From Planctomyces sp. (GTDB lineage: Bacteria; Planctomycetota; Planctomycetia; Planctomycetales; Planctomycetaceae), in assembly GCA_016795105.1 (NCBI GenBank), contig JAEUIH010000006.1:1-64000 (forward strand): 64,000 nucleotides of DNA, given 5' to 3'. Shown in pieces: positions 13,023-44,970 of the stretch. Position numbers and translations under genes: made by a program. How positions within the stretch are numbered: the stretch's first letter is position 1; every line of letters begins with the position of its first letter. The notes below the pieces were generated by a model that saw only the letters and a list, made by a program, of their open reading frames with translations, was not told where the DNA came from and ran no database searches.

Positions 13023-13607
13023 AGGGGATTGTGGGGCTGATGTTCGGGGGATTCGGGGAGGGTCTGTTGATGGCTTGGCTTGGCTGGTGGTGAGCGTTGG
13101 ATTGCGGAGCAATCCACGACGATGGGCAAATTGTGTCGAAGCCGACGCAACAAAAATCACGGGTGTCGAATCAGATTTTGAAAGAATTTGTCGCGGGGCA
13201 GATTGCTGTTGCGATTCTCGGTCGGAGTTGCCGGCGATGCCTCTGAAAACGCTGGGAAAATCGCGTTGGCCGTTTCAGTCTGGTGATCCGTGATCGATGT
13301 TCAGTGATGGGGTGCGTCCCCTGGAGGGAACCCGGTAATTGAGGTGGGAACATATGGAACGTCTCAATTCTGGCGGTTATTAGGATTATTTCGATTTTTC
13401 CCTGGACTTTGAGGTGTTTAGGGACGCGAAAATCACGAGTTTGTCGGACTGTGGCGGCGGAGCGTCGGGGAAACCCTGCGCGACGGGGCAATTTGGTCTG
13501 GCAGGAGAGGGTGTTTGCGTAAGCGGCCTTCACCAACTTTTAACCTTTCATCCCGGCTGTTGTGGTCTTGTCATTCATCCAGAGTTCTAGACTCCAGGGA
13601 CGCAGTA
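13023..13607. other. Long leader region before the giant gene
   Basis: About 585 bp with no gene I can support. The open frame of the giant gene reaches back to 13515, but its first good start is at 13608. G-rich runs follow the upstream stop, then a more mixed sequence. No terminator with a T-run was found after 13022 and no promoter stands out. Confidence 0.45.
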
Positions 13608-16600: not shown

Positions 16601-19600
16601 GATCTCTGCCGATCCGGACAGTTTTGAAGAGTCAACATTCAATTCACCTGCATTTCAGGGTGTACCGTTCACAGCGGACTATGGACGCGTTGGGCCGGAT
16701 ATTTATGGCAATCGTCTGATCAATAACTCAACGAATGGACTCTTCGTTCGAATCCAGACGGCCCCGGGGGCACCGACAAAGAAAATGACGGTGACCGGCC
16801 GATTTGACGACACTGATATTGTCCATGTTGTGGCGCAGAATCTTGAAGTTCAGGGAACTCCCGGAGGGCCGTTCCTTGAAGTGGCGGCACCACCAGTACC
16901 GCTCGTTAAGCTGACTGCACTGTCCGGCGGAACTCTCACCGCCGGGACCTACAACTACAAGATTGTTTATCGTGATTCCAGTGGTAATCAGAGCCCTGCG
17001 TCTGCGGCGACACGCAGTCTGACGGTTGGTGGGTCAAATGGCCGAATTCTGCTGGAGAATCTTCCTCCGGCAACAGCGCCATTCAACAGCCGACTGATTT
17101 ATCGATCAGAGGCAGACGGGACGGGGCCTTATCAGCTGGTGGCAATCCTGAATGCATCTGTGACCAGCTACACGGACAATGGTTCAGCTCTGACAGGCTT
17201 CCTGAATGAATCGCTGATTGGTCGAAATCGAGCTCGGCTGGATGCAAGTCTGGTCATTGATCCGGAAATGATCATCAAGCTGGAAGGTGCCCGTATCGAA
17301 ACTGGTATGGGCGCACAGATCATTGCGGAAGGGGAAGCTGGTCGAGAGATTATCTTCACTTCACGCCTCGACGATCGTTACGGGGTTGGCGGGACGTTTG
17401 ACACGAATAACGATGACAATCTCGGCAATGGCGAGTCTCGAGGGGCTGCGGGCAATTGGGGTGGTATCTACCTTGGCAGTATCTCGTCTGGCAGTTTTGA
17501 TCGAGTGTTGATGACATTTGGCGGGGGAATGACACCGATCTCAGGATCGTTCCGTAACTTCAACGTCATCGAGGCTCATCAGGCAGACCTGAGATTGACA
17601 AACAGTGTTCTTGAGAACAACGCGAATGGTGTCGGGACTGGTGTTCAGGACAGCCGCTTCGGCAAGACAGCCAATGCTTCTGCCACTGTTTTTGTTCGAG
17701 GCGCTCAGCCGGTCATTCTGAACAATGTGATTCGGGACAACCTTGGAGCAGTCATTAACATCAATGCGAATGCTCTGACCTCAGACTTCGTTCAGGACAG
17801 CGGACGTTCCCGTGGTGCCATTAATCTGTTTGGGCAATATGGATTCAATCAGGGACCACTGGTCGATGGAAACCTGCTCGGACGCAATGACATCAATGGT
17901 ATGGTGATTCGCGGTGAGACTTTGACGACACAGAGTGTCTGGGATGACACCGATATCGTTCATGTGCTCCGAAGCGAAATTGTCGTACCGAACTTCCATA
18001 CGTATGGTGGTTTGCGACTGAACAGCGATCCGGATGCAAGTCTTGTCGTGAAGCTGGACAGCGGCGCTGGATTGACGGCCGGAGGTAAGCCTCTGGACAT
18101 TGTTGACCGAATCGGCGGAACACTTCAGATTGTGGGACAACCGTTCTTCCCGGTGATCCTGACATCATTGCGAGACGATTCTGTGGGAGCGGGTTTCGAT
18201 TTGTCGGGCCTGCCTCTGAAAGATACGACCCCGAACATCAGCACGGGGCCATCGCGAGGTGACTGGCGAAGTATCCGAATTGGTGAATTTGCAAATGATC
18301 GCAACGTTGAAGTTTACAACGAGCGCGAAGTTACGTCGGCAACAGCTCCTGGAACGAATTCCACGGCCGCTAAGGCGGAATTCCTTGGCGAGCTTGGAAC
18401 TCAGGATCTGCGACGAACCAACGCTAACGGAACCCATGAAATCGACAATACGGGCGATTCAACACTCCGGCTTGGTTTTGAAGTCCATGGTTACATCAAT
18501 TCACCGAATGACATTGACGTCTATAGCTTTACAGGTGAAGCCGGTGCGGAGGTATGGATTGATATCGATCGAACCACACACGGTTTTGACCCGGTTGTGG
18601 AGCTGATTTCTGCTGCGGGAGTAATTCTTGCTCAGTCCGACAATTCGCTGCACGAGATCAATGGCGATTACCCCGTTTTCAGATCGGGGCAGACGAACGC
18701 TCAGGTGCTCGACAAGTCGATATATTTAAGCGACGACATGTATACGACAAATCAGCGGGATGCTGGTTTTCGAGTGATTCTGCCGGGGGTGACAGGTTCA
18801 CGTGGCACTTATCAGGTTCGTGTTCGCAGCAGCAATATTGATTCTGAGAACACAGCGGCAAACCGCGGCGACCTGCAGAATTCTTCGAAACTCCAGAATG
18901 GTCTGACATCCGGCAATTACCAAATGCAGATTCGACTGCAGGAGCTGGATGAGGTTCCGGGAAGTACTGTTCGATACGCTGATATTCGATTTGCGACGAA
19001 TGGTATTGAGATTCTTGGACAGCCGGCACATTCACCGCTGGTTGGCGAGTACAGCGAAAACACGGCTGACTCCAATAACTCGGCAGGTGGTGCTGAGATT
19101 ATCGGTAACATCCTGAATACCGATCGAGCGGCAGTTGCCATTGCCGGCAGAATCACTGCGCCAACAGATGTGGACTTCTATCGGTTCAATGTCACCTACG
19201 ATGACATTCAGCAGATCAATGGAAATCCGGCTCTGAACATTAATCCCTACACGCCGACACCTCGGTATGTATCGGTTGTGTTCGATGTGGACTATGCGGA
19301 CGGCATGTCACGCGCGAATCTCCAGGCACATATCTTTGACGCGATCACAGGGCAGTTAATTCTGACGGCAAGAGACTCCAACATCTCTGACGATCGCTCG
19401 GGTCCGCTTGAAGGAGCGGATATGGACGATCTGAGCCGTGGCAGTGTGGGCGCACTGGATCCGTATATTGGTCCGTTCGAACTGCCCGAGGGAAGCTATT
19501 ATCTGGTTGTAGCGCCTCATGAAGTGATTCCGGCCGCCCTGAATCAGACGATGGTGGCCAATCCATTCTCAACCACAATTCGACTTGAGCCAATTACCTC

Positions 19601-22600
19601 GATTCGTCGAATCGCGGATGAGCATTTTGGTGGGTTTGGAACAGCTGAAGCGCCGCTGTACGACCTCTTCGATAATGAACAGGGACAGAACCTGACGACA
19701 TTCCACCTCGGTGACGTCAACTTGTTTGTGAACATTTCTGATGGTGGCTTCACCGACGTTTACATGGTCGACCCGTTTACGGGAGTTGCCGAAACATATC
19801 TGGGAGGATTTGGTCGGTCGACCGGTGATGCGGCAATGCGGGCAGACGGTGAATTGTTTGCTTACGGCTGGACGGGAGCAACGGATGGGGCTGCGAGCCG
19901 TTATCTTCGAATTGACACTGGGACAGCGGCGATCACTGACCTTGGTGATGATGGAATTCTGACCTTTCATCCTGACGGAAATACACCTCCTGCAGCGGTG
20001 AATTCGGATGTTGGTATTCAGGTGACCGCGATGACCTATTTTTCTCCGACGACGACAGGAGGTTTGTTTGTCGGACAGCGAGGTGATGGGACTCGAGGCG
20101 GGATCTTCCAGCAGAACATCCTGTACCAGTTCAATGCACGAACAGGTGCCGCCATTTCACAGGGACCTCTCAGGACAGGTAACAACCGCGATAATCCGCC
20201 TGCCGGAACTGATGTTGTGGAAGTGCTGGCGCTGGGCGGGAACTCGTTGGTTACCGGCCTTGCCTCAGATGGTGCACAGTTCTTTGCTGTGAATGAGGCA
20301 GGGCAATTGCTCGAAGTCACAGCGTTCGGTGCAATTCCTGTGAATACGATTCTGGATCCAAATGGGATCCCCGTTAACTTTCAGGGACTCTCGTTTGGCC
20401 CGGACGAAGTCGAGGGCGGTGCATTTGCATCGACGCTGTTCGGAATTGATAACCTGGGCGTAATGTACGCCTTTGATACGACTGGTGTCCTGCAGCCGAT
20501 TTTTGTCGACGGTCAGACATCGATCAATACAGGGCTGGTGGGGGCTGTTGGCCTGAGCTTTGGGACGCTGGACTATAATCTTTGGTCAACTACCGGTAAC
20601 CGAGGAACAGACGTCGGGCACGGTCTTCCAGCAACACCTGACGGGACTCGGCTTGATACTCCCGGCGGCGCCAGCCTGTACTTTGGAAATCTGAGAGGCG
20701 GTCCGACCGCGGGAAATAAAAATGATCTTGGTAATCTGGGAACGGTGAACGACATCAACTTCCCGGGTGGAGCGCATGGTTCGTTTATTACAAACGCCTT
20801 CAGTCTTGAGGGATATTCGAAGCAGGACAAGCCGGCTCTTTACTTCAACTACTTCATGGAGACAGACAGCCGGGACTACATTCCTGGTGTGCGGCCTATC
20901 ACAGATGCGTTGCGTGTCTATGTAGGAGATGGCACAACCTGGAATCTTGTGGCAACCAACGATTCGTATCGAGCTCCAGGTGCGATCAACGATGAGCAGG
21001 ACTTTGGCCCTTTTGGAACAGCCACACAGCATCCAACAACTCAACTGTTTCTCGACGTGGTTGAGCTTTATGACGAAAACGCGGCTCAGGGCTGGAGACA
21101 GGCTCGAATTGACCTTAGCAACATGGCCGGACTTTCCGATCTTCGTCTGCGATTCGAATTCTCCACCGCGGGTTCGATGAATGTTGGCGATATTACGACT
21201 GTCGGCGAAGAGTTTTACGCACGCAGCGGTTCGAAGTTGCGTGACGGGCAGTCATACATCTTTGAAGGTGTCAATCAGCATGAGCTCGATATGGGCTACA
21301 CGCTGGTGGCCGTGGGTGGGTCTCGAATTGCGGACGGCGAGACATTTACGATTCAGGGGGTCACCTTTGAGTTCAATAAGTCTGGTGGCGTAACAGGCAG
21401 CAACATTCCGGTTGTAATCACCAATGCGATGAGTGCTGAGACAGTTGCAGAGGTCATGGAAACTGCGATTGATGCAGCCGGCATTGCAGACGTGAAAACA
21501 TACCGGGACAGCAATCGAGTAAACTTCATGCTGGAACGGCCGCTGCTTCCGATCAGTACTGCGGTTACAGTGACACAGAGTCTCGGAGCATCCGTGATTC
21601 GCGAAGGTTCGCCAGGCGTTACTGCCGGAACAACTGCTGTTGTAATTCACTCAGGCATGACAAGTACACAAGTGGCGGAGGTGATGTCGCAAAGCTTCGC
21701 CGACCACCATCTTCCTGCCGGAACATACCGCGAAACAGAATTCAACAATGCACCGGATCCGCTTCTGGCGATGGACCTGGAAGCATTGTCGTGGACGAAC
21801 GCAGTTAACAATACAGTTACAGATTCTGCGACGATTCCTCACATTTCGGTGATTTCGACGTCGGATGCGTTTACCGGAACGGACTACTTCTTCTTTACGG
21901 TCCCAAATAACGGGACGCGTGTGATTGCGGATTTGGACGGTACTTCAGCAACATTCAACTCGGGCATGCGAATTGTTGATATTAATGGAGTTGTACTGTT
22001 CGAAAATCTGGACAGCGGAACGGCTGATGTTGCCAGCAATCATGGACTTGATCCATTCCTCGACGTTGTGCTCGACGCTGGAGACTACTTCATCCAGGTT
22101 GGCGTGCCGCGTGCCTACGGCGGAGCATCACCTGGTGAGCGATATACACTGCATCTTTCGGTGGAAGGGCATGCTGTTGAAGCGAATGGTCCAACAAATC
22201 CACTGGTCGTGGATCGCACTGTCATCAAAGGCAATGCTGATCTTGTCCGGATTATTGGTCACTATGTGAGCACCGCCGGGCCGATGGGATTGACGACATA
22301 CCTGCCAGGAGATGAATTCGGAGGATTCTTTGCCAGCCAGCCATCACTGAGAGGTACCGTCAATGATGTCGAAGGCATATACATCGACGATATCGTGATT
22401 GGCCTGGTCGAACGAGGTGAGATGGTCACCAACGCTCCGAACGGGTTGACGACATTCATCGCCAATCCGGAAGTGAATGATCCAAACAACCTGAATCCAT
22501 ATAACGATATCCTGACCGGAGAGTACGACGTCGAAATTCGTCGTGCATCCGACTATGCGGCTGGATCAGGTTCCCCGAATCCACAATTTACATCCTTCAA

Positions 22601-25600
22601 CAGCAATGATCGTCTGACAGAACAGCAGACGATGGTCGTTCCAAATGCAACTCAGTTGCATGACGGTCAGGCATTCACTCTCAGCGATGGAGTGAACTCA
22701 GTTGTCTTTGAATACGACGATGTAAACTCCGGTGACGGTGTCACATCGGGACGAGTGCAGATTCTGTTCGACCCGGCAGCTCCGGGAATTGCAGGAGACT
22801 TCACCGGTGAAACGGCCAGTGTGATCGCTGCCCGAATTCGTGATGCCATTAACTCTCCTGCGGTTCAGGGCATTTTGAATGTTCGCGCTTCACTCAGCGA
22901 CGGTGCTTCTACCAGCCTTGATGTGAGTGCAGACTCTCGCGTCAATGTCTATGGCAATGCGAAGTTCACGTTTGCCGATGGAATTCAGAATGAGACACCG
23001 GACGATCAGCCTGTTGGCATCGACGGACGGATTCGAGCGATTGGGAACTCACTTGGTTCGACAAGTCTGTTCCATTTCACGAATACATCTTCGTTGTTTG
23101 ACAACCAGACCGGGTTGCCGGAACTGATCACTCGGATCGTGATTCAGTTGCCCGCTGGACAGACATTTGACCGAAATCCACTCGATGGTGGCAACGGGTC
23201 CGGACCGGACATCAACCCGGCGTCCAGCCCGATTACTCCAACCTTTGGCTTTAATGACACGCTGGACGTGTTGACTGTGACGTTCCCGACCACAGGTTCC
23301 GGAACATTCTTCAGTGGGGAACAACTGATCTTTGGTGTGGACGTCGATAATCTGCGTGAAGCGATTCCGAACCTTGGTTCGATCATCAATGTGACGTTTT
23401 CAACAGGTCGAACTGTGAAAGCGGTATTCGTTGAAGATCGCAGCGCTGGAATGATTGGCAAGTTGCGGGAAGTCAGCGATGCGAACTCCGTATACACGAA
23501 TGGAGGCTACGGCGACCAGAACGTGGATCGCCAGCAGGGTCAGCTGATTATTCATTCGAACTTTGTTTCGGATTCCGCGCAGTGGGGTATTTTCGTTGAT
23601 GCGGGTGCTCGAACAGGCGGATCAAATCCGCCACTTGCCGGCATTCTGCCTCACCCTGGATCTGTTCGAAACCTGCGAGAAATTAATACCTCCCGACTCG
23701 TTCCTGGTGTTGTGATTTCAAACAACGTTGTGACATCGAATCTGACCGGAGGAATTCTGTTCAGCGGAGATGCAGCGGGCGGCGTGCTTGGAGCGGTGCC
23801 GGTTGGGTTGATTATGAACAACACGGTCGTCGGCAATCTGACAAGTGCCGGGATCCGAGTGGAACAGAATGCAAGCCCAACTCTCCTGAACAACATCATT
23901 GCAGACACAGCAACAGCGATCTTTGTGGATCCATCGTCCGAGGCTCTGGGTACCGTTGTCGGGAATACTCTTTACAGAGGCAACGGAGTCAACGCGAGCA
24001 CTGGATCAATCGGACTCGGCACGTTCCCGATTGTTGTGTTGTCGACGGATCCGGACTTCCAGTTGTTTGTTGATCAGGCAAATCGAAACTACTACCCGAT
24101 CCCTCTGTCCAGAGCGATCGACAGTTCACTCGACAGTCTGGATGACCGTGCCGCAATGATTACGGTCAGAGACCCACTCGGTATCGGCCTTTCAACAATC
24201 AAAGCGCCTTCACTGGATGTCTATGGCCAGGTTCGAGGCGACGATCCAGCAGTCGCTACACCAAGTGCTCAGGGGGCGAATGTCTTCAAAGATCGCGGTG
24301 CGATCGACCGAGTAGACTTCTTCCAGCCGACCGCCAGGTTGACCGGACCTCTGGATCAGGCAGCAAATGACCTCGAACCCACACTGAATAGTGTGCGATT
24401 GAACGATGGCGAGACTTTGCGGCAATTCGTGGTCACTCTCAGCGACTCCGGAATTGGAATTGATGATGCTCGAGTCAACGTCAGCGGAAATCAATTCAAA
24501 CTGTACCAGGACATCGGTTCCGGATTTGTTCAGCTTGCAGCAGGTGTGGACTATCAGTTTGTCTACAACTCGACCACGAACGAAGTCATCTTCCGAGCGA
24601 CCACAGAGTTTCCTCTGGAAGCCAGTTATCGCATTGAAGTGGACAACAGTCCTGCAACGGTCGATGGTGTGAATGGGATTGTGGACCTTGCCGGCAATTA
24701 TCTGGCCGCAAATGAAATTGACGGAACGACGAAGTTCCACATCTTCGTGACCGATGGCGAGAACGATCCACCAGTAAATATCGTTCCACCAGGGACCCAG
24801 ACCGTGCCTGAAGACGGATTGTTGTTCTTCACCTCGGCGAATTCGAATCGAATTGGTGTCAGCGACCCGGATGCACGTCTTGGGACGAATCGGCTGCGAG
24901 TGACATTGAGCGTCACGAATGGTTTGCTGAGGCTGAGTACGACAACGGGACTGACGTTCACGACTGGTGACGGGACTGACGATGCAGTCATGACATTTGA
25001 AGGTTCAATACCGGACTTGAATACAGCGTTGAGTAATCTTCGGTTTGCTCCGGCTGCTGATTATTTTGGACCGGCTGTGCTGACGATTACGACGGACGAC
25101 CTTGGACAGTTCAACGGTCCATCGTCTCCGGCAGAATCCGATACAGACACTGTGAATATTGACGTTCTTCCGGTCAACGATCGACCTACGTTTGCACTTG
25201 CCGGAGACCCGCCAGCTGTTGATGAAGATTCCGGCGATCAGATGGTCGTGAACTTCATGACGGGTCAGGTACCGGGACCAGCAAACGAATCCTCACAGAC
25301 ACTGACGACCGAAGTCCGAGTGATTTCCGTCACGGGGGCATGGACGACGACGACGTTCTTTGCTTCCGGTGGATTGCCAGCAATTGATCCGGTAAGCGGT
25401 ACGCTGACCTACCGGGCAGCAGACCATGTAAACGGAACGGCACTCGTTGAGGTTATTGTTCGCGACAGCCTCGGGCTTGCGTCACTCAATCCAGAAACGT
25501 TCGAGATTATTGTGACGGCTGTGAACGATGAGCCAGAGTTTACTCCAAACCCCTCAGTACTGCCTCTCGTCTTCATTGAAGATGCCGGGCTGACGACGGT

Positions 25601-28600
25601 GAACCTGATTTCGTCGTTCTCTGAAGGCCCTGCAGGTGCTCTGGATGAACCGCCGCTTCAGAAACCGACATGGATTTTGAGTTCTCCGGTGAGAACTTCC
25701 GGGAATGTCGTATTCTCAACCTTTGAGATTCTGGACGATGGTACTTTCCGGTTTGAGACTTTGGCGGACACCGCAGGGACGGCAGCGTTTACCCTGCGGC
25801 TCGAAGATGATGGTTCCAATACATCACCGAATGATAACACATCGGCGACGGTGAATTTCAAAATCACGATCACTCAGGTGAACGATGCACCGGTTGCAGT
25901 TACCGGGCCATACGTGATCGACGAAGGAGATTCGCTGCTGCTGAATGCATCGGCATCGTTCGATGTGGATGAGTTCTTTGGCGACATTCTTACCTACGAA
26001 TGGGACCTGAACGGCGACGGGACCTTTGAAACCAGTTCAGGCACGTCGGACACTCTGACTCGTACCTGGGCCCAGCTGACTGCCGCCGGTATTGTGGCAC
26101 CATCCGTCTACAATACTCGATTGAGGGTCACAGACTCTGCGCTCGTTTCGCATACTGTGACAACGACACTCACCACATTGATTGTTGACTATGGGGATGC
26201 CCCAAACAGCTATGGTACGCGTAAGACGAGCAACGGGGCAGCTCACACGATTACAGGTCCGCTGTATCTCGGTGCCACAGTTGATAAAGAACTCAGCGGC
26301 ACGCCAACAGCGGGAGCAACCGGAGACGGCGCGGATGAAGATGGGGTGACCTTCCCATCAACACTTGAAGTTTCATCAACGCTGAATTTGCCGTCATTCG
26401 TCAATGTCGTGTCCTCTGCAGTTGGAAAGCTGGATGCGTGGATCGACCTGAATAACGACGGCGTGTTCAATCACCCGAGCGAACATCTCGGTGGCGGAAC
26501 AAGTATCAACGTGGTTGCTGGTGTGAATCGCGTGGACTTTGTCCTGCCGGCCGGAACGACAACAGGCAATCGTCTGATGCGATTCCGAGTCAGTACCGCG
26601 GGTGGTCTGGCACCGACGGGGCGTGCGAGTGACGGTGAAGTTGAAGACTATGTCGTGAATGTCATTCCGCTGCAGACAGCTGTCAAACCGACCGTTCTGA
26701 AGCCGGTTGACTTCAACCTCGCAGACGGGTTGATGGCGGTGACCAGCGATTTGACACCATTGGTTGAATGGTCATTCCACTCAGCGAACTACTTCCACAA
26801 CATCGAAGTGAAGAACGCCGGGAATGTTACCGTATTTTCGAAGTCCGGAGAGACAGCGACATCGGTGAATGTGACTCCACAGCTGCTTCCCGGTGTGTAC
26901 ACGGTCTCTGTTGTCGGTGTGAATCGAGCACTTCAGCCATCGGCTGCGGCAACCTACACATTTGAAGTTCTGCCGATATCGGTGACGTCTCCGACCGGTG
27001 TACTTCTGACTCATCGGCCTACAGTGACATGGAATGAGATTCGGGGCAGTAAGTCATATACAATTGAAATTGAATCGGTCGTATCTGGCCAGCCTGTTCA
27101 CACTGGCACTGTCGTCGTTGCGTCGGTCGCACCTCCAAATACTCCGACGAGTTACGAGGTACCTGTCGACCTGCCCCTTGGTCAGTACCGTGTTCGGGTT
27201 CGAGCAACAGATGCAGCGGATCTTGCTGGTGACTGGAGTGCCTATTCCGCATTCCAGGTACGCGCTTCAACGACGATCACGGCACCAGTTTCCGGACCAA
27301 ATCTGCGTCCAACGGTTGTCTGGAATGCTGTTCCAGGTGCACTGACGTATGACATCCAGGTTGATGACGTCACGGACAACGTGCGTCCGTTGTATCGAGC
27401 GTCCGGATTGACGGGAACCAGCTGGACTCCACCGGCAGACCTGCGGCTCGGCGAATATGTGGTCTGGGTGCGAGCATTTAACGGTACGGGAGACAGCAGT
27501 GTCTGGAGTAACGGCCGAACGTTCCTTGTAACTCCCAGGCCAACGATCATTACTCCGAATGCAAATGAGCGACTTCCGGATTCGACACCAACATTCGGGT
27601 GGAATGCCATTGCGGACGCGGATCGATATGAACTGATTGTTCGAAAGGACTTTGGTGATCGTGCGATTGTGATCAACCAGTCCGGTATCCGAACGACATC
27701 GTTCACGCAGCCTGCAAATCTGCCGCTTGGACCTTATAAGTACACGGTGCGGGCAATCAATGATCCAGCCAATGCAGTCGCTTTCACTCCGGTCTTCTCG
27801 TTGTACAGCGATGAAATCAGCTTCTCGATCACAACGCCTCCGACAATTACAGCGCCTCAGAGTACAACCTTCAGTCACTTCCCGCTGATTCAGTGGTCGA
27901 ATCCACTGGGCAGTGAGAAGAGCGATGTCTGGGTTGAACAGGAGGGAGTTGGTGGTGAGTTGTATTATGTTCTGGCAGAAGGAGTTTCCGGAACACAGTA
28001 TACTCCGACCCGGCAGTTCGGAATCGGAACCTACAAAGTACGTGTTCGAACGTATTCGAACACCGATAATCCGGCAACTGTAGGTGTCGATGAACGGGTG
28101 CCAACAGAGTGGAGCGTACCAAAGACATTCCGAGTGGCGACGCCGCCGGTGATTCTCGGTCCGGTCGGTCGAGTTGCTGACGCAACACCAACGCTGACAT
28201 GGCAGAGTGTTCCGGGTGGGCAGACCTATGAAGTTGCAGTGAACAGCACTTCAATTCCGGCAGCGGATGTTGTCCGTGTCGCCGGGTTGAATTCGCTGAG
28301 CTATACAGTTCCGAATGATCTGCCGATCGGACGGTACAAGTTCTGGGTTCGCGCGAAAAATGCGTTTGGTGTATTCAGCAACTGGAGTGCCGTGACTGAC
28401 TTTGAAATTGTGGCTGCTCCGGTTCTTGCAGGTCCACCGTCCTCAACGTTTGTGACGACTCCTTCGTTCACATGGAACAGCCTCGCGATGGTTGTGAAGA
28501 GCAAACCAGCGGGAGCGAGTTCTTATGAGTTCAGACTGGATGACGTCACGAACCAGGTCGCTGACAAAGTACGTGTGGCCGGATTGACGGCGACAAACTA

Positions 28601-29444
28601 CACGGTTGGCACGGCACTGTCTCAGGGTCTGTACCGAGCCTATGTTCGAGCATTCACACCAGGAGCAAGTGCGGCGGATCCGACAGACGATACACTGACG
28701 GACTGGAGCCTTCCAGTCGAGTTCTTCGTCGGCGGACGACCTGTTGTGAACGCAATTGGCACAATCACCAGCCAGACGCCGACGATTACGTGGCAGCCGG
28801 TTCAGGGTGCCTCAGGGTATGAAATCTTCATCGCTGCTGCTGCAACGCCAAATGTGCCTGTCATTAACGTCTCAGGCATTGGTGCAACCGCTTACACGGT
28901 ATCGACTCCTTTAGCGAAAGGTGATTACCGCGTCTGGGTTCGAGCAATCAACGCAACGACCGGTGGACTGAGCCCGTGGAGCATCTCGGTTAACATGAAG
29001 ATTGTTGATCGCGATGCCGGAACTCCGGAAGATGCAGCCGATCAGGCTGTCCTGGTTGCAGTGACGGGTGCTTACGAACTTGAAGCCCTGACAACTACCA
29101 CAACCATTGGCATGATTCAGTCTCTGTTGCCGGAGACGGAATCCGTGAAGGGTGATGAAACAGCGACTGATGTACCAGTTGCTGAGCTTCAGGCGCCCGT
29201 GATCGCGGAGAATGTCTCGGAGAAGGATTCCGTGTTGTCTGTGTGGGATGAACAGCTGTGGTGGGACGAACCAGTGGGTGGGGTGGTTGCTGAGGAAGTT
29301 GTACCTCCGGCAGTGCCATCTGTATCTGAACAATCAGCAGAACGAAACTCAGAGTCGAAGACAGACTCTGCGGGAGTCGGTATGCTGGCTGCACTCATGG
29401 CGTTGACACCACGTGCACTGCGACGACGACGTCGTCAGAAGTAG
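13608..29444 (+). CDS. Giant secreted multidomain protein with LEPR-like N-terminus
   Basis: 5278 residues; ATG at 13608 with AGGGA upstream. Residues 34-46 (MEEVLETRALLAA) match the LEPR-XLL signature of giant planctomycete surface proteins. In order: two Ig-like domains; a matrixin-like region about 440-600 whose zinc site is broken (HEIGFLLGFGQ at 572-582); a pre-peptidase-C-type domain (about 617-720); beta-helix blocks (about 780-1430, again near 3360-3460); two more pre-peptidase-C-like domains (about 1585-1980); a propeller-like block (about 2030-2315); cadherin-like domains (about 3720-4090); a PKD-like domain (about 4092-4194); a GEVED domain (about 4195-4355); and eight fibronectin-III-like repeats (about 4361-5135). 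The last 25 residues are a short hydrophobic segment plus RRRRRQK, like a C-terminal sorting tail. It is likely an exported adhesin or surface-layer protein. No frameshift is seen over 15.8 kb. Confidence 0.88.
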   Translation: MLISSWLTSVRNRLQYRVRVPKRRAKESRRSVQMEEVLETRALLAAPTLVTVRPNVGAFIQDGDTRNIAPRELTLQFNPGQTIDNSNNRLFVNSPVIVERSGHDGIFGNGNDVPVTLGYVGLGATPEDVVIRFAENLPDDYYRITIKGTGANPLRNTSGEALGNGTDKEFHLRLDLAAQVKAVVPQPITRLPNGTLQQARNQIVVYFNEDTLQTTSAQTPAFYRLMNTRNTVENTDDSVHLPVSVVYSTTEKTATLTFSSDIDALAGAGTYRLRIGTDETLPIAPSRTTYVETFRSDFGTGTGTVTIDPITSVDGNPISLTFQSADLNSNGVPQVSVSGRNITVTLDGPGGSTTNATQLFWAINLHPQASQLVRVALDGDILANVGATTLTPFTTVLSDPGSAVRTTTDLGTLGSQAQVISGQIRTVEYPFDFPGNSDEPGHRNIDVTHEAHLDGSPDTNPQISTFYYNFQPYYGYSQQGVALANLITENQKQRAREIFSLYSNYMGVQFIESASLGFTVVTGDMRAIDPSLPTGAGYLLAQSSRALNLAILDNAESWDDSYGGSWFRTAMHEIGFLLGFGQATELPDLTIMSGHQEGATGNPSIPVSTAEPDFPGDADIVHGRVLYRPESKDIDLYRFELPETGLFTAETIAERLSDSSLLDTTLRLYRQKQDGTLELVSQNDDYFSEDSLIQLTLSAGVYFVGVSASGNDQYNPAIADSGINGTTQGAYDLRIAFRPSADNAIVDNSGIPLDGDLDGVAGGEFNFWFRAVPASAQLIVDRTAPGGGTGTLSAPFNEIDLALAAAGAGTVVRVVGNAGADNNINTVADNVAYQVGLDDDGNVLRDGANLEIPRDVVVMIDAGAVLKFNNSYVSAGSSSLTVDRSGGSLQVLGTPKTSVTMTSWKNESVGQDTTATPTTPQQGNWGGLIFQRDVDNDESRINYERAGIFMDYVSHADMSYGGGKLIVESIQQIVNPVTLIEARPGVYNNFITLSEDSAISADPDSFEESTFNSPAFQGVPFTADYGRVGPDIYGNRLINNSTNGLFVRIQTAPGAPTKKMTVTGRFDDTDIVHVVAQNLEVQGTPGGPFLEVAAPPVPLVKLTALSGGTLTAGTYNYKIVYRDSSGNQSPASAATRSLTVGGSNGRILLENLPPATAPFNSRLIYRSEADGTGPYQLVAILNASVTSYTDNGSALTGFLNESLIGRNRARLDASLVIDPEMIIKLEGARIETGMGAQIIAEGEAGREIIFTSRLDDRYGVGGTFDTNNDDNLGNGESRGAAGNWGGIYLGSISSGSFDRVLMTFGGGMTPISGSFRNFNVIEAHQADLRLTNSVLENNANGVGTGVQDSRFGKTANASATVFVRGAQPVILNNVIRDNLGAVININANALTSDFVQDSGRSRGAINLFGQYGFNQGPLVDGNLLGRNDINGMVIRGETLTTQSVWDDTDIVHVLRSEIVVPNFHTYGGLRLNSDPDASLVVKLDSGAGLTAGGKPLDIVDRIGGTLQIVGQPFFPVILTSLRDDSVGAGFDLSGLPLKDTTPNISTGPSRGDWRSIRIGEFANDRNVEVYNEREVTSATAPGTNSTAAKAEFLGELGTQDLRRTNANGTHEIDNTGDSTLRLGFEVHGYINSPNDIDVYSFTGEAGAEVWIDIDRTTHGFDPVVELISAAGVILAQSDNSLHEINGDYPVFRSGQTNAQVLDKSIYLSDDMYTTNQRDAGFRVILPGVTGSRGTYQVRVRSSNIDSENTAANRGDLQNSSKLQNGLTSGNYQMQIRLQELDEVPGSTVRYADIRFATNGIEILGQPAHSPLVGEYSENTADSNNSAGGAEIIGNILNTDRAAVAIAGRITAPTDVDFYRFNVTYDDIQQINGNPALNINPYTPTPRYVSVVFDVDYADGMSRANLQAHIFDAITGQLILTARDSNISDDRSGPLEGADMDDLSRGSVGALDPYIGPFELPEGSYYLVVAPHEVIPAALNQTMVANPFSTTIRLEPITSIRRIADEHFGGFGTAEAPLYDLFDNEQGQNLTTFHLGDVNLFVNISDGGFTDVYMVDPFTGVAETYLGGFGRSTGDAAMRADGELFAYGWTGATDGAASRYLRIDTGTAAITDLGDDGILTFHPDGNTPPAAVNSDVGIQVTAMTYFSPTTTGGLFVGQRGDGTRGGIFQQNILYQFNARTGAAISQGPLRTGNNRDNPPAGTDVVEVLALGGNSLVTGLASDGAQFFAVNEAGQLLEVTAFGAIPVNTILDPNGIPVNFQGLSFGPDEVEGGAFASTLFGIDNLGVMYAFDTTGVLQPIFVDGQTSINTGLVGAVGLSFGTLDYNLWSTTGNRGTDVGHGLPATPDGTRLDTPGGASLYFGNLRGGPTAGNKNDLGNLGTVNDINFPGGAHGSFITNAFSLEGYSKQDKPALYFNYFMETDSRDYIPGVRPITDALRVYVGDGTTWNLVATNDSYRAPGAINDEQDFGPFGTATQHPTTQLFLDVVELYDENAAQGWRQARIDLSNMAGLSDLRLRFEFSTAGSMNVGDITTVGEEFYARSGSKLRDGQSYIFEGVNQHELDMGYTLVAVGGSRIADGETFTIQGVTFEFNKSGGVTGSNIPVVITNAMSAETVAEVMETAIDAAGIADVKTYRDSNRVNFMLERPLLPISTAVTVTQSLGASVIREGSPGVTAGTTAVVIHSGMTSTQVAEVMSQSFADHHLPAGTYRETEFNNAPDPLLAMDLEALSWTNAVNNTVTDSATIPHISVISTSDAFTGTDYFFFTVPNNGTRVIADLDGTSATFNSGMRIVDINGVVLFENLDSGTADVASNHGLDPFLDVVLDAGDYFIQVGVPRAYGGASPGERYTLHLSVEGHAVEANGPTNPLVVDRTVIKGNADLVRIIGHYVSTAGPMGLTTYLPGDEFGGFFASQPSLRGTVNDVEGIYIDDIVIGLVERGEMVTNAPNGLTTFIANPEVNDPNNLNPYNDILTGEYDVEIRRASDYAAGSGSPNPQFTSFNSNDRLTEQQTMVVPNATQLHDGQAFTLSDGVNSVVFEYDDVNSGDGVTSGRVQILFDPAAPGIAGDFTGETASVIAARIRDAINSPAVQGILNVRASLSDGASTSLDVSADSRVNVYGNAKFTFADGIQNETPDDQPVGIDGRIRAIGNSLGSTSLFHFTNTSSLFDNQTGLPELITRIVIQLPAGQTFDRNPLDGGNGSGPDINPASSPITPTFGFNDTLDVLTVTFPTTGSGTFFSGEQLIFGVDVDNLREAIPNLGSIINVTFSTGRTVKAVFVEDRSAGMIGKLREVSDANSVYTNGGYGDQNVDRQQGQLIIHSNFVSDSAQWGIFVDAGARTGGSNPPLAGILPHPGSVRNLREINTSRLVPGVVISNNVVTSNLTGGILFSGDAAGGVLGAVPVGLIMNNTVVGNLTSAGIRVEQNASPTLLNNIIADTATAIFVDPSSEALGTVVGNTLYRGNGVNASTGSIGLGTFPIVVLSTDPDFQLFVDQANRNYYPIPLSRAIDSSLDSLDDRAAMITVRDPLGIGLSTIKAPSLDVYGQVRGDDPAVATPSAQGANVFKDRGAIDRVDFFQPTARLTGPLDQAANDLEPTLNSVRLNDGETLRQFVVTLSDSGIGIDDARVNVSGNQFKLYQDIGSGFVQLAAGVDYQFVYNSTTNEVIFRATTEFPLEASYRIEVDNSPATVDGVNGIVDLAGNYLAANEIDGTTKFHIFVTDGENDPPVNIVPPGTQTVPEDGLLFFTSANSNRIGVSDPDARLGTNRLRVTLSVTNGLLRLSTTTGLTFTTGDGTDDAVMTFEGSIPDLNTALSNLRFAPAADYFGPAVLTITTDDLGQFNGPSSPAESDTDTVNIDVLPVNDRPTFALAGDPPAVDEDSGDQMVVNFMTGQVPGPANESSQTLTTEVRVISVTGAWTTTTFFASGGLPAIDPVSGTLTYRAADHVNGTALVEVIVRDSLGLASLNPETFEIIVTAVNDEPEFTPNPSVLPLVFIEDAGLTTVNLISSFSEGPAGALDEPPLQKPTWILSSPVRTSGNVVFSTFEILDDGTFRFETLADTAGTAAFTLRLEDDGSNTSPNDNTSATVNFKITITQVNDAPVAVTGPYVIDEGDSLLLNASASFDVDEFFGDILTYEWDLNGDGTFETSSGTSDTLTRTWAQLTAAGIVAPSVYNTRLRVTDSALVSHTVTTTLTTLIVDYGDAPNSYGTRKTSNGAAHTITGPLYLGATVDKELSGTPTAGATGDGADEDGVTFPSTLEVSSTLNLPSFVNVVSSAVGKLDAWIDLNNDGVFNHPSEHLGGGTSINVVAGVNRVDFVLPAGTTTGNRLMRFRVSTAGGLAPTGRASDGEVEDYVVNVIPLQTAVKPTVLKPVDFNLADGLMAVTSDLTPLVEWSFHSANYFHNIEVKNAGNVTVFSKSGETATSVNVTPQLLPGVYTVSVVGVNRALQPSAAATYTFEVLPISVTSPTGVLLTHRPTVTWNEIRGSKSYTIEIESVVSGQPVHTGTVVVASVAPPNTPTSYEVPVDLPLGQYRVRVRATDAADLAGDWSAYSAFQVRASTTITAPVSGPNLRPTVVWNAVPGALTYDIQVDDVTDNVRPLYRASGLTGTSWTPPADLRLGEYVVWVRAFNGTGDSSVWSNGRTFLVTPRPTIITPNANERLPDSTPTFGWNAIADADRYELIVRKDFGDRAIVINQSGIRTTSFTQPANLPLGPYKYTVRAINDPANAVAFTPVFSLYSDEISFSITTPPTITAPQSTTFSHFPLIQWSNPLGSEKSDVWVEQEGVGGELYYVLAEGVSGTQYTPTRQFGIGTYKVRVRTYSNTDNPATVGVDERVPTEWSVPKTFRVATPPVILGPVGRVADATPTLTWQSVPGGQTYEVAVNSTSIPAADVVRVAGLNSLSYTVPNDLPIGRYKFWVRAKNAFGVFSNWSAVTDFEIVAAPVLAGPPSSTFVTTPSFTWNSLAMVVKSKPAGASSYEFRLDDVTNQVADKVRVAGLTATNYTVGTALSQGLYRAYVRAFTPGASAADPTDDTLTDWSLPVEFFVGGRPVVNAIGTITSQTPTITWQPVQGASGYEIFIAAAATPNVPVINVSGIGATAYTVSTPLAKGDYRVWVRAINATTGGLSPWSISVNMKIVDRDAGTPEDAADQAVLVAVTGAYELEALTTTTTIGMIQSLLPETESVKGDETATDVPVAELQAPVIAENVSEKDSVLSVWDEQLWWDEPVGGVVAEEVVPPAVPSVSEQSAERNSESKTDSAGVGMLAALMALTPRALRRRRRQK

Positions 29445-39515: not shown

Positions 39516-40730
39516 TCATTCATCATGGCGAAGCTCTGCAATTTCTTCAACGGTTCCCCGGATTTCACCGTCTGTTAAACGGACTCGGATGGATTGCCCG
39601 GTTTGCAAACTTCGAATGGATCGAATGACGGTTCCGTCAGTAGATCGGGTGAGCGAATAACCGCGGGCAAGTACGTTGAGAGGGCTGAGTGCCTGAAGAG
39701 AGGCTGCTGTCGCTGCTACTGACTGGCGTTTTTGGTCGATCAGCTGGCGGATCGCTCGTTGAGATCGATCGGCGAGTTCGTCGCACAGTTGGCGCTGGTC
39801 ATCAACCATGGACATAGGTCGCTGGAAGACGGTGCGTGATTCCCAGTTATGCAGTCGAAGGCGAGCACGGTCGATTCGGCTGGCGAGCATCTGTTTCATT
39901 CGCAGCGCGAGATGGCTCAGGCTGTGTTTGAAATCATCGATGGATGGAACAACCAGTTCGCCGGCTTCACTCGGCGTCAGGGCTCTCCTGTCAGCCACAA
40001 GGTCCGCGATCGAAACATCAATCTCGTGACCGACAGCACTGATCACCGGAACTTTGCAGGCAGCAATTGCTCGTGCGACAACTTCTTCGTTGAAACACCA
40101 CAGATCTTCCAGACTCCCGCCGCCTCGTCCTGCGATCACAACTTCGACATCCGGGATGAGATGGACTCTTCGAAGGGCCTGAGCAATTTCTGCGGCGGCT
40201 CCCTCGCCCTGCACACGTACCGGGACAACGACAAGCCGGATCGACGGCCAGCGCCGAGTGATGACCTGGATCATGTCGCGGACAGCGGCACCGGTTGGGC
40301 TTGTGATCAGTGCTATTCGTTTTGGTATGCGAGGGATGGGGCGTTTTCGAGACTCATCAAACAGCCCTTCGCCGGCCAGTTTGTCTCTCAGTTGTCTGAA
40401 CGCCAGCTCAAGTTCTCCAATCCCCTGGGGCGTCAGTCGATTCACGATGAACTGACATGTGCCTCGAGGAACGTAGACCTGCAGATTGCCGGTTGCCAGA
40501 ACCTGCATTCCGTCTTTGGGCTGAAACTTAAGTCTTGCTGCGGTGGTCTTCCAGATCACGGCACTGATTTCTGATGATTCATCCTTCAGCGTCAGATAGA
40601 AGTGCCCGGTCGGAGACTTTCGGCAATTAGAAATCTCTGCCTCCACACAACAGGGCGGCAGCGCAGTCTCCACAACTTCTTTGAAGGCGGTAACAAGCTC
40701 AGTGACTGAAATGATTGGCAGATCGTTCAT
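39516..40730 (-). CDS. xseA: Exodeoxyribonuclease VII large subunit
   Basis: 404 residues from the ATG at 40730 (MNDLPIISVTELV). The open frame extends to 40784, but the extension carries no family similarity. The N-terminal OB-fold is at about 5-100 (VEAEISNCRKSPTGHFYLTLKD). The catalytic domain follows (RIALITSPTGAAVRDMI, VVIAGRGGGSLEDLWCFNEE, VISAVGHEIDVSIADLVADRRALTPSEA), then a helical coiled region and a short C-terminal domain (LARGYSLTR). It degrades single-stranded DNA together with the small subunit XseB; no xseB is adjacent. Its stop lies 49 bp before the PSD1-type gene, same strand. Confidence 0.93.
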   Translation of the reverse strand: MNDLPIISVTELVTAFKEVVETALPPCCVEAEISNCRKSPTGHFYLTLKDESSEISAVIWKTTAARLKFQPKDGMQVLATGNLQVYVPRGTCQFIVNRLTPQGIGELELAFRQLRDKLAGEGLFDESRKRPIPRIPKRIALITSPTGAAVRDMIQVITRRWPSIRLVVVPVRVQGEGAAAEIAQALRRVHLIPDVEVVIAGRGGGSLEDLWCFNEEVVARAIAACKVPVISAVGHEIDVSIADLVADRRALTPSEAGELVVPSIDDFKHSLSHLALRMKQMLASRIDRARLRLHNWESRTVFQRPMSMVDDQRQLCDELADRSQRAIRQLIDQKRQSVAATAASLQALSPLNVLARGYSLTRSTDGTVIRSIRSLQTGQSIRVRLTDGEIRGTVEEIAELRHDE

Positions 40731-40926
40731 GCGGTGTAGTCTGGCCAAAACTGTTCGCTGTGGCAACCGCATTCCGCCACCCACAGTAGGACGATTGTCC
40801 TCAATCGTTCAAACCCTGTCGCATAAGTCCCCACCCATCCTTCGGATGACAAACGGAAGAGACGCCAGTAAACTCTGTCCCCTCAATATTGAGTACCGTG
40901 AACCATACTGCAGACTGGAACGAGCC

Positions 40927-41931
40927 GTGTCTGAAGACATCGTCATCAAAGAACCACCTGTATTATTTGAAGAGACCCAGAAAATTGTCACGCAGCTGGT
41001 GGATCTGCTAAAGGCACCGGTGCTGACTTACTGGAGCGGTTCACGTGGAAGTGTCTGCAACAATGACGTGAACGGGTTCTATGAGTTGCTTGAGACGATT
41101 GGACGTCAGGAGACGATCTATCTGTTCATCAAGAGTGATGGTGGGAATCCTAAGGCATCTCTGAGGATTGCGAATCTGATTCGGCGATATGCAAAGCGGC
41201 TGGTCACACTGGTTCCACTGCAGTGTGCCTCAGCAGCAACGATGCTGACTCTGGCTTCAGATGAAATTCTGATGGGGCCGATGGCTTATCTGACCGCCGT
41301 TGATACTTCACTGACCCACGACCTGTCACCTGTCGACCGTGACAATGACCGAGTCAGCGTGAGCCTCGATGAGTTGACTCGGGTTGTCCGGCTCTGGCAG
41401 GGGCAGTCAAAGCGTGAAGATGATGTAAACCCATACCAGCATCTGTTTCAATATGTCCATCCGCTGGTCATCGGGGCTGTAGATCGTGCAGAATCGCTGT
41501 CCATTATGCTGTGTGAGGAGCTGCTTTCGTACCACATCGAGGATCGAGGCAAGATCCGTCAGATCGCAGATACGCTGAACTCCAAGTATCCCTCTCACGG
41601 ATATCCGATTCTGGTCGATGAGGCCCGCAGAATCGGACTGAACGTGGGAGAAATGACTCACGACGTCAATGAAATGCTGTTGAAACTCAATCTTCTGTAC
41701 TCTGAAATGGGCCAGAAGGCGACGACCGACTTCAGTGAAATTCGATCCCACTCCAACGAGATTCTGAACATCCTTGAGACTTCCGGGAAGCAGATTTACT
41801 ACCAGAATGACAAGGACTGGTTCTATCGAAGTGAAGAGCGTCGATGGATCACTCTGAACGACAACAGCAGCTGGAGAAAGCTTGAGAAGATCGGGGAAGA
41901 AACGCGAAAGTCAATTCTCCACATTGCCTGA
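40927..41931 (+). CDS. SDH-family Clp-fold serine protease-like protein
   Basis: 334 residues from a GTG at 40927 (GGAAC 7 nt upstream). An ATG at 40846 would add 27 residues without a ribosome site. The Clp/crotonase-like core has IYLFIKSDGGNPKASLRI, LVPLQCASAATMLTLASDEILMGP and AYLTAVDTSLTHDLSP, matching the SDH (serine dehydrogenase proteinase-like) family. The Ser in CASAATM is the likely nucleophile. It is soluble, with no signal peptide. A long C-terminal helical part includes IEDRGKIRQIADTLNSK. Divergent from xseA. Substrate unknown; the family name comes from a thermophile protease, so activity here is inferred. Confidence 0.72.
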   Translation: MSEDIVIKEPPVLFEETQKIVTQLVDLLKAPVLTYWSGSRGSVCNNDVNGFYELLETIGRQETIYLFIKSDGGNPKASLRIANLIRRYAKRLVTLVPLQCASAATMLTLASDEILMGPMAYLTAVDTSLTHDLSPVDRDNDRVSVSLDELTRVVRLWQGQSKREDDVNPYQHLFQYVHPLVIGAVDRAESLSIMLCEELLSYHIEDRGKIRQIADTLNSKYPSHGYPILVDEARRIGLNVGEMTHDVNEMLLKLNLLYSEMGQKATTDFSEIRSHSNEILNILETSGKQIYYQNDKDWFYRSEERRWITLNDNSSWRKLEKIGEETRKSILHIA

Positions 41932-43068: not shown

Positions 43069-44970
43069 TCATGACGCTTCAATCGCAAGAGGCGAATCGG
43101 TAAGCGACGTGCTGTCCATTGTTGAATGCGAGGCCCCAAAGTTGAAGCGTGAGTGCAGTTTTGAGGCGATGCAGCTGCACCATGCATGAGCGCCGGGTGT
43201 TCGGGTATCTGCCGGGAAGAACTGAATTCTGAGCGAAGAGACCTTTAGTCCGCTTTCGTTAGCAAGGAACTGACACAGAGTCGAGAGCGAGCCGCATTGA
43301 CGAAGTGAGTCAAAGAACCCCGCGAGGTCAGACGATTCACCGACGTAGAGTGTTTGCTTCGGAGTGCTGATGATAAAGACACCGGATCCTGAGGGGATTT
43401 TTTCGGGCTCGAGATTCTCGAGGGGGCTCGATGGACCCAGTTTGGATGGTACCGAAAGTACGGATCCACGCACACGAGCCACAGCGGACCGTTGCAATAG
43501 AGAAAGCGCTGCCCAGCGATAGTGAAATACAGGATGTTCGGGAACGATTGCCGCAGCGATCCGATCAAACTCAGCAGTGAGTGCAGGATCACAAAGCACT
43601 TCGAGCAGTGATTCGGCACGTTCGTCTTCGATCAGTTTCATCCATGCCAGTTCGCAGGCGAACAGAAATGGTGCACAGTCTTCGAGAGTGGGAGTCTGCT
43701 CGGCCCGGTACTCCAGATGAGCGTGCTTTCCTTCCTGGCGACGTCTCAAAAGTGTCACGTTCCATGTTCGGGGATCGCCTGGGAGAGACCTGCGTCGGCA
43801 GGCATCGGCGAATTTCTGATTGTATTCAGGATGCACGATGAGTACATCTTCACAGATTCCATCATGAACTTCTTCGAACGCATTTGAAACGCCGGCCGCC
43901 ATCTGTTCTTTGAGCTGATCGATGGAAATCTGTTCAATAGCATCCTCGTCAAACAATGACGCCTGAAGCGTGGTCGACTTGCTGCGTTTTTTTTGTCCCG
44001 AGGCCTGCTTCTGGCGTGAATCGGTAGTGCGAGGCGCCGACATCGTGGGTTCAGCGGAGCCCACCAGTGGATCACCGACGCGGACTGCGGCCAAACGCTC
44101 TGAACCAGCCTTCGAATATTCTTCTGAAAGTTCGAAGCCAATACACCGGCGATTCAGTTTGCGGGCAACGACCAGAGTGGAAGCGCTGCCGGCGAAGGGA
44201 TCCATCACGATGTCATCAGGATTAGAACAGGTTCGGACAATTCGTCCGAGCAGCTGTTCAGGCATCTGACAGCCGTGAAATCCTGCGCGTTCGGTGAACG
44301 TTCCGGCAACACGAGGAAAGTACCAGACGTCTTCGGAGCTCTGGAAACGGGACTGAAGATCCTGTGGTCGAAGGCTGAAAGTCTGTGACGAATCCGGTCG
44401 AGGCGGAGTCGCGAGACGAAGGTTGTCATTGATGTGCGTTTGGAGTTCAGCCGGAAGCTGAGGCGGTATCAACCATGTGTCGTCCGGAAGCCTGCCTTTT
44501 CCATCGGCCCTCTTGTCGTTGTAGACAAGTTGCCTTGCGGAAGGTACTCGGTTGGATGGATCGTCATTGCGAAATGTGAAGTCCTCATGGTCTTTGACGA
44601 AGTGAAACAGGTGAGTATGAGAACGAGTGAATTTTCGGGAACAGTTGACTCCGAATGTGTAGTACCAGACGACCCAGCTACGGCAGTGGAAACCAGCCTT
44701 CAGGCTCTCCACTTTCAGTTCAGCAGCGAAATCGTCCCCGATCGCCAGCCAGAATGTGCCGTTTGGTTTAAGCGCCTGCCAGACCGCCCTGATCCACTCG
44801 GACGACCATCGGAGATATTCGTCTGCCGCCAGCCGATCATCGTAGACATCGTATTTGTAGCCGATGTTGAATGGTGGATCGGCGAAGACCAGGTCTATCG
44901 ATCCCTCCGGAAGGGAACGCATTCCTGCAATACAGTCGCCGTTGTGGATTTTCTGAAGCAAATGGTCCAT
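43069..44970 (-). CDS. Beta-class DNA methyltransferase with GIY-YIG-like C-terminal domain
   Basis: 633 residues. Motif IV DPPF is at 31-34 near the N-terminus and the SAM-binding motif DPFAGS is at 257-262, followed by CIGFELSEEY. The order IV, target recognition, I defines the beta class (N6-adenine or N4-cytosine methylation, as in CcrM). The opening GDCIAGMRSLPEGSIDLVFA is CcrM-like. After about residue 300 a basic linker and a long extra region follow. Residues about 528-610 read GVFIISTP then YVGESSDL, the layout of a GIY-YIG domain, but the conserved Arg after YIG is Phe. No restriction endonuclease or specificity gene is adjacent, so it is probably an orphan or regulatory methyltransferase; the specificity is unknown. 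Confidence 0.85.
   Translation of the reverse strand: MDHLLQKIHNGDCIAGMRSLPEGSIDLVFADPPFNIGYKYDVYDDRLAADEYLRWSSEWIRAVWQALKPNGTFWLAIGDDFAAELKVESLKAGFHCRSWVVWYYTFGVNCSRKFTRSHTHLFHFVKDHEDFTFRNDDPSNRVPSARQLVYNDKRADGKGRLPDDTWLIPPQLPAELQTHINDNLRLATPPRPDSSQTFSLRPQDLQSRFQSSEDVWYFPRVAGTFTERAGFHGCQMPEQLLGRIVRTCSNPDDIVMDPFAGSASTLVVARKLNRRCIGFELSEEYSKAGSERLAAVRVGDPLVGSAEPTMSAPRTTDSRQKQASGQKKRSKSTTLQASLFDEDAIEQISIDQLKEQMAAGVSNAFEEVHDGICEDVLIVHPEYNQKFADACRRRSLPGDPRTWNVTLLRRRQEGKHAHLEYRAEQTPTLEDCAPFLFACELAWMKLIEDERAESLLEVLCDPALTAEFDRIAAAIVPEHPVFHYRWAALSLLQRSAVARVRGSVLSVPSKLGPSSPLENLEPEKIPSGSGVFIISTPKQTLYVGESSDLAGFFDSLRQCGSLSTLCQFLANESGLKVSSLRIQFFPADTRTPGAHAWCSCIASKLHSRFNFGASHSTMDSTSLTDSPLAIEAS

Follow-up and report, generated by a model that had tools for sequence, protein, structure and literature searches.

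The methyltransferase gene and its surroundings

The window, by which we mean the whole stretch of 64,000 nucleotides that was analysed, belongs to an 8.9-Mb planctomycete genome (contig C358) and carries the gene dissected in Table 1. An earlier note on this DNA had described the open reading frame at 43069-44970 as encoding 633 aa on the minus strand, and this was found to be so. Behind the methyltransferase half lies a C-terminal tail of approximately 270 residues consisting of two parts, a helical one followed by a GIY-YIG one. Genes around the reading frame are DUF1501/DUF1553-like, xseA, UbiA, pdxA, dnaG and sigma-factor-like genes, named partly from Pfam and for the remainder from reading the translations. 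We found no convincing conserved neighbours of the methylase gene, the largest clusters being shadow reading frames over the gene itself. Elsewhere in the window, positions 13515-29444 (+) hold a reading frame of 5309 aa, which is very large for a bacterial protein, and the product of positions 40681-41931 (+) has a serine protease domain of the ClpP-like SDH type (PF01972, 7.6e-12).

Table 1 Features of the methyltransferase gene in the window.
Feature	Position	Strand	Basis
Entire gene (633 aa), with beta-class methyltransferase, duplicated helical and degenerate GIY-YIG domains	43069..44970	-	Open reading frame; alignment of 68 homologues sharing this architecture
Methyltransferase domain, residues 1-300	44071..44970	-	Pfam N6_N4_Mtase; CcrM structure match
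Catalytic motif IV DPPF, residues 31-34	44869..44880	-	FADPPFNI in 95/101 homologues; D31, P32 and P33 invariant
Target-recognition region, residues 128-239	44254..44589	-	Common to tailed and tail-less homologues; model and alignment
AdoMet motif I (DPFAGS), residues 255-266	44173..44208	-	Homologue alignments
Helical domain, residues 342-505	43456..43947	-	Two similar four-helix units (approximately 342-412 and 429-503); model
Degenerate GIY-YIG domain, residues 522-613	43132..43407	-	Fused-tail profile against UvrC; model secondary structure; fold of standalone homologue
GVF...YVG half-motifs, residues 530-532 and 542-544 (GIY Tyr to Phe)	43339..43383	-	Module alignment
F552 at the GIY-YIG Arg position	43315..43317	-	Arg kept by 17/17 unfused homologues and by 61/67 of the other fused ones
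C598 at the metal-binding Glu position (UvrC E76)	43177..43179	-	Glu in 16/17 unfused and 0/67 other fused homologues

The methyltransferase half

Residues 25-288 match Pfam N6_N4_Mtase (PF01555) at 2.4e-46, with 158.9 bits against a cut-off of 26.7, and motif IV, present as FADPPFNI at residues 29-36, lies N-terminal to motif I, which is the beta-class order and agrees with the class assigned in the earlier note. The solved structure closest to the full-length model is CcrM (6pbd; Z 24.6, rmsd 3.2, 221 aligned residues), and M.MboIIA is also among the closest structures. The description of the protein as CcrM-like therefore holds for the nearest structure but not for the NCBIfam CcrM equivalog, whose cut-off is missed with 103.3 against 830 bits. 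CcrM shares with the methylase analysed here the beta-class fold with DPP(Y/F) followed by motif I, an accessory C-terminal part behind the methylase, and an orphan, core-type distribution. In CcrM the C-terminal part is a domain that binds DNA nonspecifically (PMC6787082); it differs from the present tail in being short and unrelated to a nuclease. Since motifs IV and I are near-invariant over 101 homologues, the methylase is predicted to be active; it is probably a functional DNA methyltransferase, and its family membership makes the N6 position of adenine the likely target.

The methylase half (residues 1-300) would recognise and methylate its site by means of its own target-recognition region, in which residues from approximately 172 to 200 form a variable insert of low model confidence. 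This region is nearly letter-for-letter the same in 14 tail-less homologues as in the tailed ones, both sharing the consensus RVPSARQLVY...RANPkGRLPDDTWI and EDTWYFPRVAGTFKERaGFHGCQMPEQ. Because the tail-less homologues keep the region, the choice of methylation site probably does not lie with the tail, and the alignments thus argue against the tail as the setter of methylation specificity. Of the two roles that the earlier note had offered for the fusion, target binding in the sense of site choice is thereby disfavoured, while a repurposed restriction-like fusion gains support from the findings below.

A duplicated helical domain followed by a GIY-YIG fold

The helical domain is modelled with pLDDT above 90 over most of its length, and its two units align with each other at an hhalign E value of 1.1e-7, in keeping with a duplicated domain. 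Neither a Pfam family nor a PDB sequence matched it. A winged-helix or HTH identity for the units was dropped, as fold matches reached a Z of only 5.8 or less, and weak matches such as that to DUF2719 (0.05-0.1) were taken as chance.

For the last part of the tail the earlier note had pointed to a GVF..YVGESSDL segment near residues 530-550, and the alignment places GVF at 530-532 and YVGESSDL at 542-549 of the product. As a single sequence the window tail matched nothing in Pfam, NCBIfam or PADLOC scans, so the HMM search proposed in that note was empty in its simple form and the motif reading had outdone the domain search; the identity of the tail came only from profiles of its relatives. 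A profile built from 38 fused tails alone found UvrC at 1.1e-9 across the whole GIY-YIG domain, with weaker matches to T4 endonuclease II, I-TevI and Slx1, and the tail profile matched standalone GIY-YIG homologues at an E value of 1.3e-15. Pfam GIY-YIG was matched by 31 of the 38 fused tails at E values up to 1, the best being 2.1e-7. UvrC, whose N-terminal GIY-YIG is by sequence profile the closest solved domain, differs from the tail, which has none of the UvrC domains beyond GIY-YIG and has lost the Glu.

The structural models agree with the profiles. The window tail is modelled at a pLDDT of approximately 95 with the canonical strand-strand-helix-helix-strand-helix order, and the model of a standalone homologue (pLDDT 90) matches I-TevI (Z 10.4, rmsd 1.8, 82 residues), UvrC (Z 9.9) and R.Eco29kI (Z 7.7), the next unrelated fold following at 5.8. 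The direct fold values of 9.9-10.4 belong to this standalone homologue and not to the window tail itself, the fold search with the full-length model having a match list filled by methylases. The resemblance of the tail to GIY-YIG is beyond chance, and the tail is a member of that superfamily by fold, as the earlier note had proposed for the C-terminal region; the outcome that would have refuted the note, a structure prediction lacking this fold, did not arise.

Loss of the catalytic residues

Active-site residues were tallied over 85 module sequences in a register taken from alignment to UvrC. Both the central Arg and the metal-binding Glu of an active nuclease are absent from the window tail, which has Phe for the GIY Tyr, F552 for Arg, Leu for His and C598 for Glu, and which has lost more of these residues than most fused relatives have. 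At the metal site the 67 fused relatives carry Gln (52), Lys (7), Arg (4), Ala (2), Val (1) or Tyr (1). They have mostly kept the GIY Tyr (59), the YIG Tyr (60), the Arg (61) and the Asn (65), while the His four residues past the Arg is found in 9 of 67 fused sequences compared with 17 of 17 unfused ones. It is clear from this tally that the lesion common to the family is the loss of the catalytic Glu and that the change of Arg to Phe is local to the window. Judged from the alignment, a uniform loss of Glu with Tyr, Arg and Asn kept does not look like general decay.

The earlier note had based the inactive look of the domain on the Phe in place of the Arg. F552 is real, but it is not a family trait, and we dropped the Arg loss as main evidence of inactivity. 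Moreover, R.Hpy188I relatives relocate the GIY-YIG Arg (PMC2630997), which makes the Arg alone weak evidence. The inactive look itself is upheld on other grounds, namely the absence of the catalytic Glu from 67 of 67 fused relatives. In R.Eco29kI the E142A mutation abolishes cleavage with robust DNA binding (Kd 45 vs 16 nM), H108F abolishes cleavage with poor DNA binding, and R104A leaves approximately 2% of cleavage (PMC1952068). Together with these mutant data the residue losses lead us to predict that the fused domains do not cut. By the same analogy the loss of Glu would permit DNA binding by the fused tail, and the loss of His would weaken it. The inactive R.Eco29kI E142Q has been crystallised to study DNA binding (PDB 3mx4); the common change of Glu to Gln in the fused tails is the same substitution, so that the idea of binding without cutting is directly testable.

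It is very improbable, in our judgment, that the nuclease is still active through a relocated acidic residue, which would make the protein a single-chain restriction-modification enzyme. Relocation has the precedent of the Arg in the R.Hpy188I relatives, and a functional one-chain fusion of GIY-YIG nuclease and methylase (Eco29kI) has been built in the laboratory (PMC3039593). The third helix of the fused tails has no conserved acidic residue, however, 63 of the 67 fused relatives carry Gln, Lys or Arg at the metal site, and the window protein has no acidic residue nearby.

An intact paralogue downstream in some relatives

The tail module occurs in four settings. It is fused to the methylase at 75 full-length loci of the genome collection, and at 11 of these 75 it is found a second time as a separate gene of approximately 252 aa directly downstream of the fused methylase; counted over loci with at least 900 nt of downstream sequence, the partner is present at 10 of 67. 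The partner is a GIY-YIG nuclease whose homology with the tail spans the full length of the tail, the helical part included. One such partner lies at L042 5815-6570 and has its catalytic Glu at E237. At nine of the ten junctions read, the methylase stop and the partner start overlap (ATGA, TAATG or TGATG), the tenth being the L116 locus, where the partner start is unclear. R, H, E and N are intact in all ten aligned partners, and all ten match Pfam GIY-YIG; PADLOC, NCBIfam and PHROGs returned generic GIY-YIG matches only. Neither this intact paralogue next door in relatives nor the duplicated helical domain had been noticed in the earlier note.

In the third setting the module follows an N-terminal hydrophobic stretch that resembles a signal peptide when judged by eye (L143:2204-3190(-), L144:1973-2911(+), L145:2601-3614(-), L146:1608-2639(-) and L147:4395-5417(+)). 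These planctomycete proteins share the helical domain, have their catalytic residues intact and are possibly exported nucleases. In the fourth setting it stands behind a HicB-type domain (L141:1574-2701(+) and L142:1232-2383(+)) with the active site partly lost. Immediately upstream of both HicB-type fusions is a small reading frame; a D12 adenine methylase (PF02086) follows the fusion at L141 and an N-6 DNA methylase (PF02384) lies near that at L142. The UvrC/Cho matches L136, L138 and L139 of the phylum search were set aside as ordinary.

Searching the window genome with the standalone nuclease returned only the reading frame at 43069-44970 and one weak match (E 0.055), a query of this kind finding homologues of the standalone nuclease and not unrelated endonucleases. 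By this query the cognate endonuclease of a Type II restriction-modification system is missing from the window genome, and the methylase is, as the earlier note had it, an orphan.

These findings bear on a Type II-like restriction-modification origin of the pair, which, where the partner persists, would also be its present function, the nuclease cutting unmethylated sites and the dead tail serving as a scaffold or as one half of a heterodimer. We regard this as rather unlikely. The overlapping genes, the intact active sites of the partners and the co-inheritance of partner and fused tail described below speak for it, as do the known GIY-YIG restriction enzymes R.Eco29kI (PMC1952068) and R.DraR1 (PMC10855626). 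The last two resemble the present family in pairing a GIY-YIG nuclease with a methylase and in the catalytic set Y, Y, R, H, E, N; they differ in that their R and M genes are separate and share no module, the nuclease is active and the added domains are others. Against such a system, nearly the whole class has the methylase, which persists where the partner is absent, as typical mobile restriction systems do not, and the partner had no match in plasmid or phage collections at an E value of 1e-3. The proposal is inapplicable to the window genome, where the partner was not found. One relative lies on a contig labelled viral, and the neighbours read there included no clear phage genes.

Distribution and descent

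Genomes of 53 of 59 relatives gave a match, and in 52 of them the methylase is present, the match in G017 being a tail-type nuclease only. In a wider sample of the phylum the methylase was found in most members of this family and class and in scattered genomes elsewhere. Among cultured species, Thalassoglobus neptunius KOR42 and Rhodopirellula rubra carry the tailed gene. One genome (G126) has a tail-less and a tailed copy, at C1:291209-292000 and C1:5971776-5973284. The fused tails form one clade apart from the partners (SH-aLRT 98) in a quick tree with a weak root and many weak inner branches. Over 10 loci and uncorrected for phylogeny, the distances between partners correlate with those between fused tails (Mantel r 0.87, p 1e-4) and, less closely, with those between methylases (r 0.50, p 0.011); the former correlation fits co-inheritance. 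On the methylase tree the partner is scattered, with 10 changes for 11 rows. An old operon from which the nuclease was repeatedly lost would fit the distance correlations, and independent gains of the partner may be an alternative to repeated loss.

The nearest kin of the window methylase are L004, which is tailed, then four homologues with truncated tails and then a tail-less one, with supports of 72-99. In the Fuerstiella-type homologues L098, L103, L106 and L119 (and L019) the tail ends shortly past the first helices, and tblastn at E 1 found no downstream remnant of the missing part in the truncated homologues. The window protein and L004 are 74% identical in the methylase and 45% and 30% identical in the two parts of the tail. 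Given the divergence of the methylase, that of the window tail is mildly above average (ranks 12 and 13 of 68). In view of the truncated nearest kin, the extra residue losses and the low tail identity to L004, the window tail may be a relic that is decaying in this clade.

Going further, the tail could be a passenger, a dead nuclease remnant that is functionless in the window lineage, drifting and near to loss. The truncated tails of the four nearest methylase relatives and the absence of a tail from another point that way, as does the loss of the GIY Tyr, Arg, His and Glu positions together in the window protein; more generally, the existence of tail-less relatives shows the tail to be dispensable, which counts against a functional one. 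The very confident model of the tail, its only mildly elevated divergence and the family-wide conservation of Y, R and N alongside the uniform loss of E argue the other way, and we consider this outcome unlikely.

Discussion

The reading that we favour, and hold to be reasonably probable, is that of an active N6-adenine methyltransferase conserved across Planctomycetia with a pseudo-nuclease DNA-binding tail, the remnant of a methylase-nuclease operon. The tail would be a whole nuclease copy, duplicated helical domain and GIY-YIG alike, whose metal-binding Glu was lost when the fusion formed or earlier, and most likely it holds DNA or a nuclease partner beside the methylase without cutting. 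The likely ancestor was a two-gene operon of a methylase with the dead nuclease copy followed by the intact nuclease, whose gene would later have been lost in most lineages, the window genome included, leaving an orphan methylase.

Methyltransferases fused to, or in operons with, Slx1-like GIY-YIG domains have been described by Dunin-Horkawicz 2006 (PMC1564403), and the authors suggest a restriction-modification-like operon for such pairs. As here, the methyltransferase is N-terminal to the GIY-YIG domain and sister cases are adjacent genes; the cases covered in the available part of that paper differ in having COG4123 (NPPY) or SPOUT methylases, an Slx1-like nuclease and no helical double domain, and a dead fused copy with an intact standalone paralogue is not among them. 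In a partial coverage of the literature no published case emerged in which a dead GIY-YIG domain is fused to a beta-class methylase beside an intact paralogue, and a search on planctomycete GIY-YIG/methylase fusions and methylomes returned nothing specific.

Dcm with Vsr and Dam with MutH follow a logic comparable to nicking or repair guided by methylation. A similar arrangement here would be a methylase carrying a dead full-length copy of its partner nuclease, the heterodimer of pseudo-nuclease and nuclease nicking or repairing according to methylation state, and most planctomycetes having later kept nothing but the methylase half; we think this doubtful.

On the favoured reading of a conserved methylase with a pseudo-nuclease tail, a near-universal methyltransferase of Planctomycetia appears to carry a pseudo-nuclease in many lineages. 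The family would then be a natural case in which a restriction-type nuclease became a component of a housekeeping methylase, some species still having the intact paralogue alongside.
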